Positions 544-58,595 of a stretch of DNA of 64,000 nucleotides are shown here, in pieces. Below the pieces are notes generated by a model, which saw nothing but the letters and a program-made list of their open reading frames with translations, ran no database searches and had not been told where the DNA came from. This stretch comes from Rhizomicrobium sp. GTDB taxonomy: Bacteria; Pseudomonadota; Alphaproteobacteria; Micropepsales; Micropepsaceae. Position 1 is the stretch's first letter, and every line of letters starts with the position of its first letter. The translations under genes and the position numbers were made by a program. The stretch covers positions 782,756 to 846,755 of the forward strand of contig JBBCGJ010000001.1 of NCBI GenBank assembly GCA_037200985.1, given 5' to 3'.

Positions 544-1029
544 CTAGCGATCGATGCGCCGCAGCAGGCCCAGAAGATCGGCGATGTCGTCCTTGCCGAC
601 GTTGTCCGCGATCCACTTCTCGTGCTCCGCGACCGCCGCCTTCGACAGCGCCAGGACCTTCTGGCCCTTCGGCGTGAGGTAGAGCTCCTGGCGGCGGCCG
701 TCACTGCTGGAGCGCTCGCGGATCAGGAGCTGGCGGTCGGCCAGCCGGTCGATGATGGCCATCATCGAGGCGCGGTCCATGCCGAGCTCGCTGGCGAGCG
801 TCACCTGCGAGATGCCGCCATTGGCGCCGATCATCCACAGCACGCCGGTCTGCTTCTGGGTCAGGTCGAGCTTGGCCATGATCGAGGCGAAGCGCCGCGA
901 GATCGCGACATAGGCCATCCGCATGCGAAAGCCGACCAGGCTGTCCAGGTTGGCGCGGTCGACCTTGCCGGCCGGTACGCCGTCAGGTGTCTTGCGGACG
1001 CGCGAAGCGGGCGTTCCTTTTGTCAGCAT
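544..1029 (-). CDS. MarR family transcriptional regulator
   Basis: A 161-residue winged-helix regulator. The core (about residues 45-130) reads as a MarR domain: a helix with LTQKQTGVLWMI, the recognition helix around LASELGMDRASMMAIID, and a wing with RSSSDGRRQELYLTPKG. The frame stays open further upstream, but ATG 1029 gives the family's normal length and removes an arginine-rich, non-conserved extension. It is divergent from the MFS transporter at 1253 across a 223-base gap, the usual layout for a MarR repressor controlling an efflux pump. That role and the nature of the ligand are inference. I found no clear operator palindrome in the gap beyond GC-rich self-complementary stretches. Confidence 0.88.
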   Translation of the reverse strand: MLTKGTPASRVRKTPDGVPAGKVDRANLDSLVGFRMRMAYVAISRRFASIMAKLDLTQKQTGVLWMIGANGGISQVTLASELGMDRASMMAIIDRLADRQLLIRERSSSDGRRQELYLTPKGQKVLALSKAAVAEHEKWIADNVGKDDIADLLGLLRRIDR

Positions 1030-1252: not shown

Positions 1253-2896
1253 ATGGCGTCCAACGAGCCGGGCGATAGTCCGGCGGCGAAGCCCGCCGGC
1301 CGGTACCGCTGGTATGTGCTGGCCGTCCTGACGGCGGCGCTGGCGCTCAGCCTGCTCGACCGGCAGATCCTCACCATCCTGGCCGGACCCATCAAGGCGG
1401 ATCTGGGGCTCTCCGACGCGGAGATCGGCCTTCTCTACGGCACGACTTTCGCGGTGTTCTATTCGCTGTTCGGCATCCCACTGGGCCGGGTCTCGGATGT
1501 GTGGCTGCGCGGAAGGCTGATGGCGCTGGGCCTCATCGGCTGGTCGGCGATGACCATGTTCAGCGGCTTCGCCGCCAACCTCACCCAGCTCGTCATCGCG
1601 CGCATGGGCGTGGGCGTCGGCGAGGCGACCGCCAATTCGGCGACCTATTCGCTGCTCTCCGACTATTTCCCCAAGGAGCAGCGCGCCACCGCCATCGCGC
1701 TCTATTCCTGCGGCGTCTCCTTCGGCCTCGGCGGCTCGCTGTGGTTCGGCGGCAGCATCGTCGATCTGTGGCAGGGCTGGTTCGGCGCCGGCGGCGCGCC
1801 GCTCGGCCTGAAGGCCTGGCAGGCGGCCTTCGTCATCGTCGGCTTGCCCGGCTTCCTCGTCGCCGCGCTTCTGTGGTTCGTGCGCGAACCCCAGCGCGGC
1901 CTCGCCGACGGCCTGGTCCAGACCGAAACCCGAAAGCCGTTCCCGGTCTTCCTGTCCGAACTTCTCGCCATCCTGCCGCCGCTGACGCTGGTAAACCTCA
2001 TCGTCCACAAGGCGACGCGCCGCGTCTGGGCCGTGCATCTGCTCGTGCTCGCCGCGATCGTCCTCTGCGCCGCAGGGCTCATCGTCTTCACCAACGGCAT
2101 CGTGCCCGCCGCCAAGCGCCATGTGCTGTTCGATATCGGCGGCTTTCAGATCACCGGCCACACCGTGCAATGGACCGCGCTCGGCATCGGGCTCTACGGC
2201 GTGTTCTCCTGGGCCCAGACGCTTAGGCTCCGCGACGCGCCGGCCTACGCGCTGATCTTCCGATCCCCCGCCATGCTCGGCCTGATGGGGGCGGCCTCGC
2301 TCAACATGGTACTCAATTACGGCCTGACGTCCTGGGCGCCGTTCTACGCGGTCACGACCTACAAGCTGTCGCTCGCCCGCGTCGGCTTCGAGATGGGCGT
2401 CGTCGCGGCCTCGGCCGGGCTGATCGGCACCTACCTCGGCGGCGTGCTCGCCGATTGGGCGCGCCGCCGCTCGCCGCGCGGCCGGCTCTATGTCTCGCTC
2501 GTCAGCATGATCGGCTCGGTGCCGATCGCGCCCTTCATGTTCTCCGCGCCGACGCTGGAGATCATGCTGGCCTGGTGGCTGGTGCTGGGCACCATCGTCA
2601 CCGCCTGGATCGCCGGCATGGCGGCGGCGACGCAGGAGCTGGTCCTGCCGCGCATGCGCGGCACCGCGGCGGCGGCGCTGACCCTCGGCATGTCGATGTT
2701 CGGCCTCGGCCTCGGGCCCTATTCGGTCGGCTTGGTCAGCGACGCGACCGGCGATCTGCATTTCGCGATCCTCAGCGTCTACGCCGTGATCCCGTTCCTG
2801 ATCCTCTGCATGCTGCTGGCGATCCGCCATGTCGGCGCCACCGAGGCCAATCTCGTCGCGCGCGCCCGCGCCGCCGGCGAGTCGATCGAGCCCTAG
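1253..2896 (+). CDS. MFS transporter
   Basis: A 547-residue inner-membrane major facilitator superfamily permease. The first transmembrane segment follows a short cytoplasmic N-terminus (YVLAVLTAALALSLLDRQIL). A motif-A-like loop (GRVSDVWLRGRLM) lies between helices 2 and 3 at about residues 75-90. It is longer than the common 400-450 residues because an extra segment of roughly 100 residues, including additional hydrophobic helices, lies in the central loop (about 215-320). The start has a strong Shine-Dalgarno (GAGGGGGGAAAA) before ATG 1253. It is divergent from a MarR-type gene, which suggests ligand-induced export. The substrate is unknown; similar proteins are often annotated as hexuronate- or spinster-like transporters. 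Confidence 0.9.
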   Translation: MASNEPGDSPAAKPAGRYRWYVLAVLTAALALSLLDRQILTILAGPIKADLGLSDAEIGLLYGTTFAVFYSLFGIPLGRVSDVWLRGRLMALGLIGWSAMTMFSGFAANLTQLVIARMGVGVGEATANSATYSLLSDYFPKEQRATAIALYSCGVSFGLGGSLWFGGSIVDLWQGWFGAGGAPLGLKAWQAAFVIVGLPGFLVAALLWFVREPQRGLADGLVQTETRKPFPVFLSELLAILPPLTLVNLIVHKATRRVWAVHLLVLAAIVLCAAGLIVFTNGIVPAAKRHVLFDIGGFQITGHTVQWTALGIGLYGVFSWAQTLRLRDAPAYALIFRSPAMLGLMGAASLNMVLNYGLTSWAPFYAVTTYKLSLARVGFEMGVVAASAGLIGTYLGGVLADWARRRSPRGRLYVSLVSMIGSVPIAPFMFSAPTLEIMLAWWLVLGTIVTAWIAGMAAATQELVLPRMRGTAAAALTLGMSMFGLGLGPYSVGLVSDATGDLHFAILSVYAVIPFLILCMLLAIRHVGATEANLVARARAAGESIEP

Positions 2897-2898
2897 GA

Positions 2899-2919
2899 TT
2901 TGTACGTTCAACATACGAA
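2899..2919. promoter_or_regulatory. Imperfect palindrome, second copy of the 3092 operator-like site
   Basis: Two 8-base arms (TTTGTACG and CATACGAA) flank a 5-base spacer, directly after the MFS stop codon. Six of the eight arm positions are complementary. The right arm is identical to the right arm of the perfect palindrome at 3092-3112, and the 8-5-8 geometry is the same. The pair therefore looks like two binding sites for one dimeric regulator 193 bases apart. Which protein binds is unknown. Confidence 0.5.
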
Positions 2920-3083
2920 TTTACGCCTCGCTGCGGCGAGGTGGTGGGCAAGCCCCACGCGACGTCTGACCCGCTGCGGCCCGAGTCGCGAAACATTGTA
3001 AAAAAGTGCGCTCTGTGGCGGGTAGCGTGACTGCCCGCCGGCGATCCCAACCTTGCCCACGTCATGCGTGGGCGAACCGTAAC

Positions 3084-3112
3084 TTGACCATTTCGTATGT
3101 CGCGCATACGAA
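3084..3112 (+). promoter_or_regulatory. Candidate sigma-70 promoter overlapped by a perfect palindrome
   Basis: TTGACC (3084-3089) and TACGAA (3107-3112) are spaced by 17 bases, a plausible though weak -35/-10 pair for the gene starting at 3144. A perfect inverted repeat, TTCGTATG-TCGCG-CATACGAA (3092-3112), covers the spacer and the -10 box, the position expected of a repressor operator. The assignment is by motif reading only. Confidence 0.5.
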
Positions 3113-3143
3113 TCGCGCCGGGGAATGCGAGGGAGGCAGCGAC

Positions 3144-4535
3144 TTGGAAAGCCAGGCGCTTGTCGACGAGATAGCCGATTATTGCCGCAGGCACGGCCTG
3201 GCCGAATCCACTTTCGGCCGGCTCGCGATCAACGACGGCAAGCTGATGAGCCGCCTGCGCACCGGCGGCCGCGTCACCCATGAGACGCTCGACCGCATGC
3301 AGGTCTTCATGCGCACGGTCGACCAGCCGCTGCGCCGCAAGCCCGCCGCCTATGCCAACGGCCATGCCCGCGTCCCGCGGATGTCGCTGGACCCGCCCGG
3401 CCGCGACGCGGACGCGAAATTCCGCCTCTACGACAACCGCCAGAAATATCTGTTGTTCGTCACGACCTGCTCCGAGAAATGGGTCGTCGCCGACCGCGTC
3501 AGCCGCGAGCTCGCCAACATCCATCCCCAGCCGCCGGCGGTCCGCCTGTTCGACGCCGGCGTCGGCGACGGCACCATCCTGACGCGCGTCATGCGGGCCA
3601 TGCATCACCGCTTCCCCGCCGTGCCGTTTCACATCGTCGGCAAGGAGATCAGCCTTGAGGATATGCGGCTGACGCTGGAGAAGATGCCCGACCGCTTCTT
3701 CGAGCATCCCGCGACCTGCCTCGTCATGACCAACATGAACTACACCGAGGCGCCTTGGCTGACGCCGAGATCGGTGGCGGCGGCGCAGAGCATGGTGTGG
3801 CACGAGTTGGTGCTGACCGGCGACACGGCGCACGATTTCGAGCGCCAGATCGCCGAGCTCCAGCCCTTCCTGTCGCAGAACTGGGGCGCCCAGATCAGCC
3901 CGCGCTCGGGCAATCCGGTCTATGAGAAGCCGGTGGCGCTCGTGATCTACCGCGCCGATTACAAATTCCTGCTCGATGCCGTGCGGCCGCGCCAGGGCGT
4001 GCCGACGGCGGACTACGATCTCGTCATCGCCTCGCAGCCCTACCGCGCCCGTGCCCCGCTCGACTTCCGCGCGCGGCGCGTGATCGCGCCCCTGGTGCGC
4101 GCGCTCAGGCCCGGCGGCCGCCTGCTCGGCATCCATTCGCATGGCGAGGATCCGGGGCTGGAGATCGTCCGCAAGGTCTGGCCGGACGAGACCCCGTTCG
4201 CCGTCGACCGCCATCGATTGCTGCGCGCCGTGAAGGCCGAGCTCGGCAGGGACGCGCGCGACATCACCTTCCACGCCAATGCCGACGCCCGCTCGCTGTT
4301 CCGCTATGACATGCACACGCTGCCCAACGAGATCAGCAGCCATATGGGCACCTCGACGCTGCTGGCGGCGTGGAACGCGGCGATCTTCGTCGCCCAGATC
4401 GACGACGGGCGGCTGGCCGGCGCGATGGCCAGCGACGCCTATCTCGAAGCGACGCAGGAGGTCGTGCACAAGCATGGCGGCCTGTGGTTCTGGGACGAGT
4501 CCTTCATCATCTCGCGCCGCCAGGACCGGCTTTAG
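3144..4535 (+). CDS. Unrecognised SAM-methyltransferase-like protein with helical DNA-binding-like N-terminus
   Basis: A 463-residue protein I cannot name. I chose the TTG at 3144 because GGGAGG lies 7 bases before it and the upstream in-frame sequence looks non-coding and contains the promoter. Residues 1-60 form a small helical unit (STFGRLAINDGKLMSRLRTGG) resembling the lambda-repressor-like helix-turn-helix of short alphaproteobacterial proteins. From about residue 110 the sequence turns into a Rossmann methyltransferase-like fold: LFDAGVGDGTILTRVM is a good SAM-binding motif I, and ALRPGGRLLGIHSHGEDPG is a typical post-motif segment. The gene stands alone, with a palindromic site over its own promoter. 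Substrate (small molecule, RNA or protein) is unknown; the family call is moderate. Confidence 0.75.
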   Translation: MESQALVDEIADYCRRHGLAESTFGRLAINDGKLMSRLRTGGRVTHETLDRMQVFMRTVDQPLRRKPAAYANGHARVPRMSLDPPGRDADAKFRLYDNRQKYLLFVTTCSEKWVVADRVSRELANIHPQPPAVRLFDAGVGDGTILTRVMRAMHHRFPAVPFHIVGKEISLEDMRLTLEKMPDRFFEHPATCLVMTNMNYTEAPWLTPRSVAAAQSMVWHELVLTGDTAHDFERQIAELQPFLSQNWGAQISPRSGNPVYEKPVALVIYRADYKFLLDAVRPRQGVPTADYDLVIASQPYRARAPLDFRARRVIAPLVRALRPGGRLLGIHSHGEDPGLEIVRKVWPDETPFAVDRHRLLRAVKAELGRDARDITFHANADARSLFRYDMHTLPNEISSHMGTSTLLAAWNAAIFVAQIDDGRLAGAMASDAYLEATQEVVHKHGGLWFWDESFIISRRQDRL

Positions 4536-4551
4536 CGATTGTTCCTTTTTG

Positions 4552-4625
4552 TCATGCCCGCGCAGGCGGGCATCCAGCGACCGGGCGAGCAGCCGGGTTT
4601 GGATTCCCGCCTGCGCGGGCATGAC
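4552..4625. repeat. Dispersed palindromic repeat, family B copy 1
   Basis: A 74-base inverted repeat whose outer arms begin GTCATGCCCGCGCAGGCGGG and end with the matching complement. A 75-base near-copy lies at 39617-39691, and both are followed by AATCTGGAAT. It can form a long hairpin and may act as a terminator for the 3144 gene, ending 17 bases before its left arm. The IS630 element sits immediately downstream. Confidence 0.85.
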
Positions 4626-4637
4626 AATCTGGAATAA

Positions 4638-5803
4638 TACCAACGGCCTTAGTTTCTGACTCGTGAGGATTCAACGCGGCCGCTGTCTGTGATTCGCTTT
4701 GCGAGGTGATTCGCGAAGGGGATCGGCGATGGCGATCAAGATTTTGCGTTCGGAACACAGTGCTTCGGATTTGCGGCGGGAGGCGGCCAAGACGCGGCAC
4801 GCCGATCAGGCTCGCCGGTTGCTGGCGCTGGCACTGGTGCTGGAAGGCACGTCTCGCACGGACGCGGCAACGGCGTGCGGCATGGATCGCCAGACGCTGC
4901 GCGACTGGGTGCATCGCTATAATGCGTCAGGCATCGATGGTCTTGTCGACCGCAAGGCTCCAGGCCCAACGCCCCGGCTGACGGAGCAGCAGGAGGCTGA
5001 ACTTGTCCAGATTGTGGAGCAAGGTCCCGATCTTGCGAACGACGGTATGGTGCGCTGGCGCCGCGTCGATCTTCGCGACGTGATCGCCGCGCGCTTTGGC
5101 GTTGCGCTTCACGAGCGCACCGTGGGCAAGGTGCTGGATCGTCTCAACTTCAGCCATATGTCGGTTCGCCCGCGCCATCCCAAAGCAGACGCCGATGCCC
5201 AAGAGGCGTTCAAAAAAACTTCGCGCAGCTTGTCGATCGCGCCTTGCCGGATGCCGCCAAAACCAAGCCGGTCGAGATCTGGTTCCAGGATGAAGCCCGG
5301 ATCGGCCAGAAGGGAAGCTTGACCAGAATGTGGGCGCGGCGCGGGACACGCCCCACCGCGCCGCGCGATCAGCGCTACAAGTGGGCCTACCTCTTCGGCG
5401 CGGTCTGTCCCGAGCGCGCCTGTGCCGCCGGTCTGGTTCTTCCTTGCGCCAATACCAGGGCGATGACGGCGCACCTCAAGGAGATCAGCCGGGCCGTCAG
5501 GCCAGGCGCCCATGCTGTCCTGGTCATGGACGGCGCTGGCTATCACGAGAAAGCCATCACCCACCTGCCGTCCAACATCTCGCTGCTGACGTTGCCGGCA
5601 TACGCCCCCGAACTCAACCCGGTCGAGAATGTCTGGCAGTTCCTGCGCCAGAACCATCTCGCAAACCGCGTCTTCAAAGACTACGACGCCATCCTCGATG
5701 CTTGTTGCGACGCTTGGCGAAGCTTCCTCAGAAACCCAGACAATATCGCCTCGATAACCCAAAGATCATGGGCCAAATGTGTCAACCACTGAGGCCGTTG
5801 GTA
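4638..5803 (+). mobile_element. IS630-family insertion sequence
   Basis: The element is bounded by TA dinucleotides at both ends, as expected of this Tc1/mariner-related family, which duplicates TA on insertion. The terminal inverted repeats (4638-4662 and 5779-5803) share the first 12 bases (TACCAACGGCCT) and match at about 20 of 25 positions. The element is 1166 bases with one transposase gene split over two frames. It is inserted at the end of a family B palindromic repeat. I could not search for other copies. Confidence 0.9.
4729..5792 (+). CDS. IS630-family transposase, two frames joined by a -1 shift at an A7 run
   Basis: The first frame (4729-5217 onward) encodes the helix-turn-helix part: LALALVLEGTSRTDAATACG and a second HTH around TPRLTEQQEAELVQIVEQG. 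The second frame encodes the DDE catalytic domain: FQDEARIG (first Asp), VLVMDGAGYH (second Asp) and YAPELNPVENVW (Glu). The frames join at seven adenines (5212-5218); re-reading one base there gives a product of about 354 residues, normal for IS630. The family is known to use programmed frameshifting or transcriptional slippage on A-runs, so this is probably a functional design and not decay. The start ATG has AAGGGGAT before it. A sequencing-type indel in the homopolymer is the alternative. Confidence 0.85.
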
Positions 5804-5812
5804 TAACTCTCC

Positions 5813-6538
5813 TCACCCCGTCACGGCATTCGCCACATAGATCAGCGCCGCGCCCAGCAGCGTCATCGCCGTGGTGAGGAATTTCGGATGGGCGTGCTGG
5901 CTCTCCGGCACCAGGTCGCTGGCGCCCAGATAGAGGAACAGCCCCGCGAACACCGCGAGCACGGTCGCGAACACCGGTCCCGCCGGATGCACCAGAAAGG
6001 TGAGCCCGACGCCCACCGCCGGCGCCAGCGCATCGGCCGCGAGCCAGCGTAGGCCCTCGCGCCTTGTGCCGCCGTTCTTCAGCACGACGTTCATCGTGTT
6101 GATCCCGTCGGAGAAATCATGCGTCACCACCGCGATCGCCACCGCCAGCCCGATCGTCGCCGACACCTGGAACGCGAAGCCGACCGCCAGCCCGTCGAAC
6201 ATGCTGTGCGTCACCAGCGTGGCGGCGCCCAGCGCGCCGCGCGGCGGCGCGTGTCCATGGCCGCCATGTCCGTTGTGGTCGTCATGGCCGTGCAGCAGCG
6301 CGACGCGGTCCAGCAGCAGGTAGAACAGGAACCCCGCCGCCACCCAGACCATCGTTCGTCCCGGATCGGCCGGCGCCAGGCGCAAGGCCTCGGGCATCAG
6401 GTCGAAGAACGCCACGCCCACGACCGCGCCGGCGCTGAAGCCCAGGATCAGGTGCAGCCGGTCCTTGAGACGCAGGGCGACAAGGCCGCCCAGCATCGTC
6501 GCCGCGAAAGCGGCCGATGCGATCAACAATGAAGCCAT
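5813..6538 (-). CDS. ZIP family metal transporter
   Basis: A 241-residue inner-membrane protein with about eight hydrophobic segments and the ZIP hallmarks: a histidine-rich loop (HGHDDHNGHGGHGH, about residues 83-97), the helix-4 metal motif (THSMFDGLAVGFAF) and the helix-5 motif (THDFSDGINT). These residues coordinate divalent metal, usually zinc, and drive uptake into the cytoplasm; direction and specificity are known of the family and not shown here. Its length is close to bacterial ZupT/GufA types. It ends 10 bases from the IS630 right end and is divergent from the lysine-rich small gene at 6611. No Zur-like site was recognised. Confidence 0.92.
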   Translation of the reverse strand: MASLLIASAAFAATMLGGLVALRLKDRLHLILGFSAGAVVGVAFFDLMPEALRLAPADPGRTMVWVAAGFLFYLLLDRVALLHGHDDHNGHGGHGHAPPRGALGAATLVTHSMFDGLAVGFAFQVSATIGLAVAIAVVTHDFSDGINTMNVVLKNGGTRREGLRWLAADALAPAVGVGLTFLVHPAGPVFATVLAVFAGLFLYLGASDLVPESQHAHPKFLTTAMTLLGAALIYVANAVTG

Positions 6539-57191: not shown

Positions 57192-58595
57192 TCAGTACCG
57201 GTAGTGGTCCGGCTTGTAGGGGCCGGCCTGCGGCACGCTGATATATTCGGACTGCTTGTCCGAAAGCTCGGTCAGCTTGGCGCCGATCTTCGCCAGGTGC
57301 AGCCGCGCCACTTTCTCGTCCAGGTGCTTGGGCAGGGTGTAGACCTTCTTCTGATACTTGCCCTGGTTCGCGAACAGCTCCATCTGGGCCAGCGTCTGGT
57401 TGGTGAACGACGCGGACATCACGAAGGAGGGATGCCCCATCGCGTTGCCGAGATTGACCAGCCGGCCCTCGGACAGAAGGATGATCTTGTGGCCGTCGGG
57501 GAATTCGATCTCGTCGACCTGCGGCTTGACGTTGCTCCACTTGAAATTGCGCAGGCCCGCGACCTGGATCTCGGAATCGAAGTGGCCGATGTTGCACACG
57601 ATGGCCCGATCCTTCATCGCGCGCATGTGCTCGACCGTCAGCACGTCGACATTGCCGGTCGCGGTGACGAAGATGTCGGCGCGGGGCGCCGCGTCTTCCA
57701 TCGTCACGACCTCATAGCCTTCCATCGCCGCCTGCAGGGCGCAGATCGGATCGATCTCCGACACCATCACGCGGCAGCCGGCCTGGCGCAGCGACGCCGC
57801 CGAGCCCTTGCCGACGTCGCCGAAGCCCGCGACCATCGCGACCTTGCCGGCCATCATCACGTCGGTGCCGCGGCGGATGCCGTCGACCAGCGATTCGCGG
57901 CAGCCATAGAGATTGTCGAACTTCGACTTGGTCACGCTGTCGTTGACGTTGATCGCCGGGAAGAGGAGCTTGCCCTCCTTCTCCATGATGTAAAGCCGGT
58001 GCACGCCGGTGGTGGTCTCTTCCGAGACGCCCTTGATGTTCTTGGCGAGCTCGGCGAACCAGCCCGGCTTCTCCTTCAGCGTGCGCTTGATCAGCGCGAA
58101 GAACACTTCCTCTTCCTCGTTGCCCGGCGTGTCGAGGAAGGCGGTGTCGCCCTTCTCGGCGCGCAGGCCGTGATGGACGAGCATGGTGGCGTCGCCGCCG
58201 TCGTCCAGGATCATGTTCGGCGTACCGCCGTCATGCCATTCCAGGATCTTGCGGGTGTATTCCCAATAGTCCTTCAGGCTCTCGCCCTTGATGGCGAACA
58301 CCGGCGTGCCGCCGGCCGCGATCGCCGCCGCGGCGTGATCCTGCGTCGAATAGATGTTGCACGACGCCCAGCGGACGTCGGCGCCGAGCGCCTTCAGCGT
58401 CTCGATCAGCACGGCGGTCTGGATCGTCATGTGCAGCGAGCCGGCGATGCGCGCGCCCTTGAGCGGCTGCGCCTTGGCGAACTCGGCGCGCGTCGCCATC
58501 AGGCCGGGCATTTCGACTTCGGCCATCGCGATCTCCTTGCGCCCCCAGTCGGAAAGCGAGATATCCTTGACGACGTAGTCGGAAGCGGCTGTCAT
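57192..58595 (-). CDS. ahcY: Adenosylhomocysteinase
   Basis: A 467-residue NAD-dependent hydrolase splitting S-adenosylhomocysteine into homocysteine and adenosine. It starts at ATG 58595 (AAGGA upstream) with [19 protein letters not shown]. The NAD fold [19 protein letters not shown] (about 220-240), the Asn/Lys active region [20 protein letters not shown] and C-terminal YRY (LKPDHYRY-like) are diagnostic. In alphaproteobacteria it lies next to the ptsH region. The unusually long 392-base upstream region is described separately. Confidence 0.97.

Follow-up and report, generated by a model that had tools for sequence, protein, structure and literature searches.

A putative self-regulating HTH-methyltransferase-like fusion protein and its candidate operator of CCCAC/GTGGG half-sites

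Restriction-modification methyltransferases of the M.SsoII type carry an autoregulatory HTH and control their own promoter. In the available parts of two reports on Proteobacteria, SahR is described as the SAH-responsive regulator of ahcY, metH, metF and metK as well as of its own gene (PMC4239095, PMC8877191). DNA-binding domains are also found joined to enzymes or to domains derived from them. BzdR is presented, in the accessible portion of its report, as an enzyme-derived sensor in which an HTH DNA-binding domain is combined with a shikimate-kinase-like domain and for which the loss of enzymatic activity is essential (PMC3602430), and the trifunctional PutA appears in the text available to us as a self-repressing enzyme that consists of an RHH and a proline catabolic enzyme (PMC5293562). 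A literature search of partial coverage, which does not prove absence, returned no paper on the methyltransferase-like family described here or on HTH-CysD fusions, and the available parts of two articles on MetE/MetF (PMC12478193, PMC7857596) make no mention of the fusion protein.

We analysed a 64-kb stretch of Rhizomicrobium sp. DNA (hereafter, the window), in which the gene at 3144..4535 on the plus strand encodes an HTH-methyltransferase-like fusion protein of 463 aa. The gene begins with TTG behind an RBS-like GGAGG (3132-3136), and this start is supported by the orthologue in a close relative (G066; 93% identical), which has ATG at the same place. Upstream of it lie an MFS transporter gene (1253..2896, plus strand; Pfam MFS_1, E 4.9e-37) and, divergent from the latter, a MarR family regulator gene (544..924, minus strand; Pfam MarR_2, 52.1 bits with a cut-off of 27). 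Directly 3' of the fusion gene is an insertion (about 4540-5829) with a DDE_3 transposase in two overlapping frames, which we take to be IS630 by name; it is missing from G066, where the flanks align directly. The same genome holds a paralogue, about 60% identical (L047:4700-6340; G000:C1, around 4362000), that is devoid of the HTH part and whose matches are split over two frames. DNA resembling the insertion element, as read by eye, is located upstream of this paralogue, and its G066 counterpart (L065) is full-length. The window also contains an ahcY-like gene at 57195-58583 on the minus strand, about 53 kb from the fusion gene.

The whole protein or part of it was matched in 36 of 385 genomes of a class-wide sample, in 180 of the 248 sampled genomes of the family of G452 and in 4 of the 96 genomes of the window's own family. 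The relatives occur in two forms: a long form in which both the HTH and the methyltransferase-like domain are present, and a short form from which the HTH is missing. A plasmid-borne gene was rejected, with no match at E <= 1e-5 among 72,556 plasmid records, as was riboswitch control, since the window and five loci of relatives (L152, L161, L068, L012, L066) gave only two tRNAs at the gathering score.

The class I methyltransferase-like domain is predicted to span residues 93-463 (3420..4532, plus strand) and carries FDAGxGD, GKEIS-like and ASQ motifs that are conserved in both the long and the short forms. As the original prediction had claimed, the gene encodes a SAM-binding motif, FDAGVGDGT, which we located at residues 136-144 (3549..3575, plus strand) and which we take to be motif I of class I methyltransferases; six of its positions (F, D, A, G, G, D) are invariant across 12 aligned relatives, so that the SAM motif I expected of this class is present in the window protein (FDAGxGDG). 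The downstream ASQPYRAR (4029..4052, plus strand), presumably comparable to amino-methyltransferase motif IV, has its A, S, Q and both R residues invariant in 12 relatives, and its SQPY part is replaced by SQAF in L083 and L041. The earlier statement that no named family fits is borne out by the Pfam and NCBIfam scans, in which the window protein reached no family at its cut-off and the relatives (sets of 11 and 12 scanned) gave no convincing Pfam family, the best being DUF2000 in one member (E 0.0023), with weak matches to Methyltransf_12 (E 0.12) and UPF0020 (E 0.17). PDB sequence searches with profiles A1 and A3 gave no match at E <= 10, PHROGs returned weak families of unknown function only, PADLOC matched mad2 weakly and locally (E 7e-4, 16.6 bits) and the whole-protein fold prediction from three sequences was poor (pLDDT 40). 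The same motifs are retained in the short forms, which have no HTH, so that the methyltransferase-like domain is possibly still an enzyme.

The putative HTH module occupies residues 1-60 (3144..3323, plus strand), as indicated by a whole-protein search that matched the N-terminal part alone in unrelated proteins (L042, L044, L045, L046). The original prediction had described this part as a small DNA-binding-like domain, and we find this supported because a distant member of the module family (L193) matches Pfam HTH_3 (E 5.2e-5, 23.6 bits, cut-off 23), so that the putative assignment draws on this match and not on structure prediction. The window protein itself has no Pfam HTH_3 match. The fold prediction of the HTH gave four helices but a low pLDDT of 60, and a Foldseek search of the PDB with this prediction found no match at E <= 0.001. 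No ArsR/HTH_5-type model was among the Pfam and NCBIfam scan matches of the window protein and its relatives.

We noticed by eye that the upstream DNA of 12 long forms contains CCCAC-N7-GTGGG just ahead of a TTGAC box; in seven of the 12 the pattern has at most 1 mismatch and the box follows at a distance of 27 or 28 bp, and none of the 17 short forms has CCCAC-N7-GTGGG at <=1 mismatch. In the window, this proposed operator of the HTH module, suggested by its conservation across relatives, is located at 3056..3072 (plus strand), and the -35 box begins 28 bp after its first base (3056). A second half-site pair, GTGGGCAAGCCCCAC (2944..2958, plus strand), is partly kept in G066 as GTGGGCAAACCCCAT. 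In a check set of 30 further long forms, 29 of which had enough upstream DNA, the pattern at <=2 mismatches stands exactly 28 bp before TTGA[CT] in 25 of the 29.

The half-sites are conserved upstream of the relatives and depend on the HTH module. When the half-site was defined as [TG]CCCAC or GTGGG[AC] and counted in 200 bp upstream, the 68 HTH-bearing homologues (71 entries minus L123, with too little upstream DNA, and the duplicates L144 and L145) yielded 149 against 19.2 expected from shuffles, counts that are not independent events because many of the 68 genomes are close relatives, while the homologues without the HTH yielded 3 against 4.0 expected (n=16 of 17, L033 being dropped for too little upstream DNA). 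At least one half-site is present in 62 of the 68 long forms, the six without one being L065, L067, L138, L151, L153 and L203. Within the same loci, the 200-bp upstream segment holds 2.19 half-sites on average versus 0.136 in 2,713 other segments of this length, and it strictly exceeds every other segment in 45 of the 68 loci. The outward CCCAC-N7-GTGGG at <=1 mismatch was found in 33/68 (0.88 expected), the same pattern, with <=2 mismatches allowed and TTGA[CT] required at +28 exactly, in 32/68 (0.04 expected) and the inward GTGGG-N6-CCCAC at <=1 mismatch in 26/68 (0.9 expected), with at least one of these arrangements in 41/68. Several of the remaining long forms have the half-site in looser arrays, such as the repeated TGCCCAC in L152 and L163. 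The site is present in f1, f87, f122, f171, f102 and f70, the last two inward, and in the MAG loci L012 and L013. A single dimer would not usually be expected to use such a variable arrangement (outward N7, inward N6, looser arrays). A further GTGG directly precedes the TTGA box in 26 of the 36 long forms that have the box, the window not being among them, and because this extra GTGG overlaps the -35 region, repression would be favoured.

The 64-kb window by itself shows no excess of CCCAC-N7-GTGGG at <=1 mismatch over chance (3 versus 2.29 expected); the case for a candidate operator rests on conservation and position. The exact 15-base pattern, CCCAC-N7-GTGGG with TTGAC at +28, occurs once each in G000 (the genome of the window), G066, G049 and G216, always at the fusion gene, and in none of the other 14 of the 18 genomes searched. 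Six of those 14 hold the long form or part of it (G027, G293, G452, G301, G381, G417), and only G293 among them has the pattern at its own gene within 2 mismatches; weaker matches are about as frequent as those of a reversed control. The single exact site in four genomes suits a regulator that would mainly serve its own promoter. The comparison gives good support to the idea, put forward in the original prediction, of a self-regulating enzyme with an N-terminal DNA reader, but not by way of the palindromes named there; the sites that follow the N-terminal domain are the CCCAC/GTGGG half-sites, which that prediction did not list.

The theme common to the neighbours of the gene in relatives is SAM and methyl-folate metabolism. 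Among 70 distinct long-form loci (74 entries minus 4 duplicates), 22 have metK within 300 bp downstream on the same strand, with ahcY behind metK in the 15 of those that have long flanks, and 32 have a MetF-like gene in that position. Neither is found in 16 of the 70, the window and G066 included; in four of these 16 the flank is shorter than 350 bp. In NCBIfam scans, one metK and one ahcY exceeded the respective cut-offs. For the MetF-like query, the matches to methylenetetrahydrofolate reductase models stayed below cut-off, and no NCBIfam match at 1e-5 was obtained with its L068 relative. MetE-like genes are located near seven long forms and near the broken L047 paralogue, and another MetF-like type, one member of which matches PRK08645 below cut-off, is found close to 10 forms that are short or cut off and to 2 long forms. 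For two outlying short forms, we observed a DddP-like gene (below cut-off) as neighbour in L083 and a phosphonoacetaldehyde dehydrogenase gene in L082.

From these comparisons, we consider it likely that the fusion protein is an autoregulatory HTH-methyltransferase that tunes SAM-cycle and one-carbon genes, with a methyltransferase-like domain that binds SAM or SAH; the binding to DNA, the sign of regulation, the ligand and any enzymatic activity are what we infer from sequence. The protein would consist of an XRE-like HTH module fused to a class I methyltransferase-like domain, the latter binding SAM and/or SAH, and the module would bind the [T/G]CCCAC half-sites in its own promoter at 3055-3073 and probably also at 2944-2958. 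With the half-sites just upstream of the -35 box and in fixed phase to it, the protein would control the operon to which it belongs; the most likely mode is that of a repressor or tuner, with SAM/SAH read by the methyltransferase-like domain. In relatives, the operon so controlled would include SAM-cycle or methyl-folate genes (metK-ahcY, or a gene of the MetF-like type). The window lineage has no such genes next to the fusion gene, and the promoter there may have gained a second operator, the palindrome discussed below; this would probably serve a different regulator, for example the MarR family protein whose gene lies upstream.

This palindrome, TTCGTATGTCGCGCATACGAA (3092..3112; TTCGTATG-N5-CATACGAA), is perfect and occupies the spacer and the -10 of a promoter-like TTGACC-N17-TACGAA (3084-3112, as read from the sequence), confirming that a perfect palindrome covers the probable -10 box. 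The -35-like TTGACC (3084..3089, plus strand) is at a fixed distance to CCCAC-N7-GTGGG in many relatives, and the -10-like TACGAA (3107..3112, plus strand), 17 bp after the -35, lies inside the palindrome. The imperfect copy reported right after the MFS gene is also there: TTTGTACGTTCAACATACGAA (2899..2919) has 2 mismatches and an identical right arm, and starts just past the stop codon of the MFS gene (end at 2896). At <=3 mismatches, the palindrome has two matches against 0.07 expected, and none of 100 shuffles had two. Both copies are kept in G066 amid surrounding intergenic DNA that has diverged, which, together with the promoter position, indicates that the palindromes are real and probably selected. 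Among 69 genus genomes, an exact copy was found in G000 and G066 only, and something similar at <=2 mismatches in 17, with 1 to 3 sites each. A third copy in the genome, with 1 mismatch, is located at G000:C1:2801161-2801181 (L055:1501), near a TonB-receptor-like ORF and two GST-like ORFs (names given by eye). We also noticed that the 21-mer TTCGTACGCTGTCGCTACGAA or its complement is present at many places in G000, G066 and G049, like a dispersed repeat.

The original prediction went further and let the N-terminal domain read these palindromes, naming homologues that lack them among the observations that would refute it. In its favour are a perfect palindrome over the -10 and the two copies, both of which are present in the close relative. 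The comparison of upstream regions places the palindrome at <=3 mismatches in 2 of the 68 HTH-bearing homologues, the window and G066, with 5 mismatches in the next best; it is absent from the other 66, including L066, whose protein is 70% identical, and it is unlike the GGA-N4-TCC sites of the HTH family. We have rejected the palindrome as the site of the HTH on this distribution, and regard its recognition by the N-terminal domain as very improbable. Since only two of the 68 homologues have it, the palindrome is probably the operator of another regulator, and appears to be an additional input that the window lineage has acquired. What makes the MarR protein a candidate is solely that its gene lies beside the fusion gene in the same two genomes, four other long-form loci having been compared: among L064, L065, L066 and L067, the MarR and MFS genes are found only in L064, which is the one of the four with the palindrome. 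Such an operator, placed in the promoter spacer and -10, would link the fusion gene to the MFS transporter, and as a statement about the second operator it is compatible with the autoregulation proposed above. Its occurrence in two genomes only, the lack of any site at <=3 mismatches in the MarR-MFS intergenic region and the third genomic site near the TonB-receptor-like and GST-like ORFs speak against it, and we hold it to be a possibility on the doubtful side.

The half-sites themselves could belong to another transcription factor that controls the gene, the HTH module having some other role. Promoters of conserved operons often hold the sites of separate regulators, and the varied half-site arrangement is odd for one dimer; we nevertheless find this unlikely, in that the half-sites track the HTH across the with-HTH and without-HTH groups (although the genomes of one group are not those of the other), the CysD-fused module comes with the same half-sites and the exact site is single in four genomes, as suits autoregulation. 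A different role for the whole protein, that of a DNA methyltransferase, either orphan or restriction-linked, that carries an autoregulatory HTH as in the M.SsoII type, would agree with the combination of an HTH and a methyltransferase whose SQPY resembles amino-methyltransferase motif IV, and with the weak local mad2 match. The context in relatives is one of metK, ahcY, MetF-like and MetE-like genes, no endonuclease was recognised among the recurrent neighbour clusters listed (mostly judged by eye) and SQPY is not invariant, all of which make a DNA methyltransferase very improbable. We thus retain autoregulation through the CCCAC/GTGGG half-sites as the preferred reading.

The HTH module is also found outside this family. 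Profile A4, built from the 59-residue module and including that of the window, where the match is therefore by construction, found matches in 44 of the 385 class genomes and in 38 of the 398 drawn from the phylum. The module is fused to CysD (sulfate adenylyltransferase subunit 2) in seven loci (L173, L174, L175, L176, L177, L205, L207) and to AMP nucleosidase (L172) and fumarase C (L178) in one locus each, and is present in small proteins, alone or in tandem; one CysD fusion, the AMP nucleosidase and the fumarase scored above NCBIfam cut-offs. The putative DNA-binding module and an enzyme domain are hence combined in one chain both in the long forms, as opposed to the short ones, and in the CysD, AMP nucleosidase and fumarase fusions. 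All seven CysD fusions have a GGA-N4-TCC palindrome with arms of 5 or more (0.03 expected), in each case of the TGGGA-N4-TCCCA type and within 200 bp upstream of the module. The stand-alone module genes have such a palindrome in 13 of 29 cases (0.1 expected), eight of these being TAGGA-N4-TCCTA, while the other 16 and the AMP nucleosidase fusion have none with arms of 5 or more; the match of the fumarase fusion overlaps the start codon, and a control stretch downstream has none with arms over 3. Two new methyltransferase fusions were tested for GGA-N4-TCC, with GTGGGAAATATCCCAC found in L204 and no site in L203.

With arms of 4 or more, sites are present in 25 of the 40 modules examined and absent from the other 15. 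TGGGA sites are found in 9 of the 12 modules scored DG[KR] versus 0 of 13 other modules, where DG[KR] is a text match anywhere in the module, by which L189 (DPRLVFDLRDGR) is mislabelled; the DG[KR]-scored modules that do not fit are L178, L183 and L189. In seven small stand-alone HTH genes (L206, L208, L209, L212, L213, L214, L217), the upstream TAGGA-N4-TCCTA has GACAAGTAGGA or GACAAGTTGGA behind it. On a Thioclava plasmid, a stand-alone relative is divergent to an S24 peptidase gene, an arrangement that resembles that of CI and Cro. A broader reading of these data is that the HTH module serves as a portable cassette for autoregulation, probably an alphaproteobacterial one, and has been grafted before unrelated metabolic enzymes (the SAM-cycle methyltransferase-like protein, CysD, AMP nucleosidase and fumarase), that each fusion reads GGA-cored half-sites in its own promoter, that the substrate or product of the enzyme sets the switch, that stand-alone Cro-like members are the source and that a recognition code pairs DGK-type modules with TGGGA and DPR-type modules with TAGGA. 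The agreement of this reading with the CysD data is good, but it is poor for AMP nucleosidase and fumarase, which have one locus each; we put the reading as a whole forward tentatively, as somewhat short of an even chance.

The preferred reading assigns a testable role, as first gene of SAM-cycle and methyl-folate operons, to an uncharacterised gene with matches in 180 of the 248 genomes sampled from one bacterial family, and the fusions suggest a general route by which bacteria let enzymes regulate their own genes. The proposed control of SAM-cycle genes and of its own gene would liken the protein family to SahR as described in the parts of the reports available, but SahR is an ArsR family protein with other sites, whereas the HTH of the window protein is unrelated to that of SahR and is joined to a large methyltransferase-like domain. 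With the M.SsoII-type enzymes it shares the HTH, the methyltransferase and the proposed control of its own promoter, and it differs from them in that its relatives have SAM-cycle and methyl-folate operon partners. The likeness to PutA, as far as the available text describes that protein, is one of design; PutA has an RHH and another enzyme where the window protein has a putative HTH. The likeness to BzdR, drawn from its description in the accessible text, is also one of design only, a DNA-binding domain joined to an enzyme-type domain; BzdR has another enzyme fold and pathway, and the window protein, in contrast to that regulator, has kept SAM motif I.
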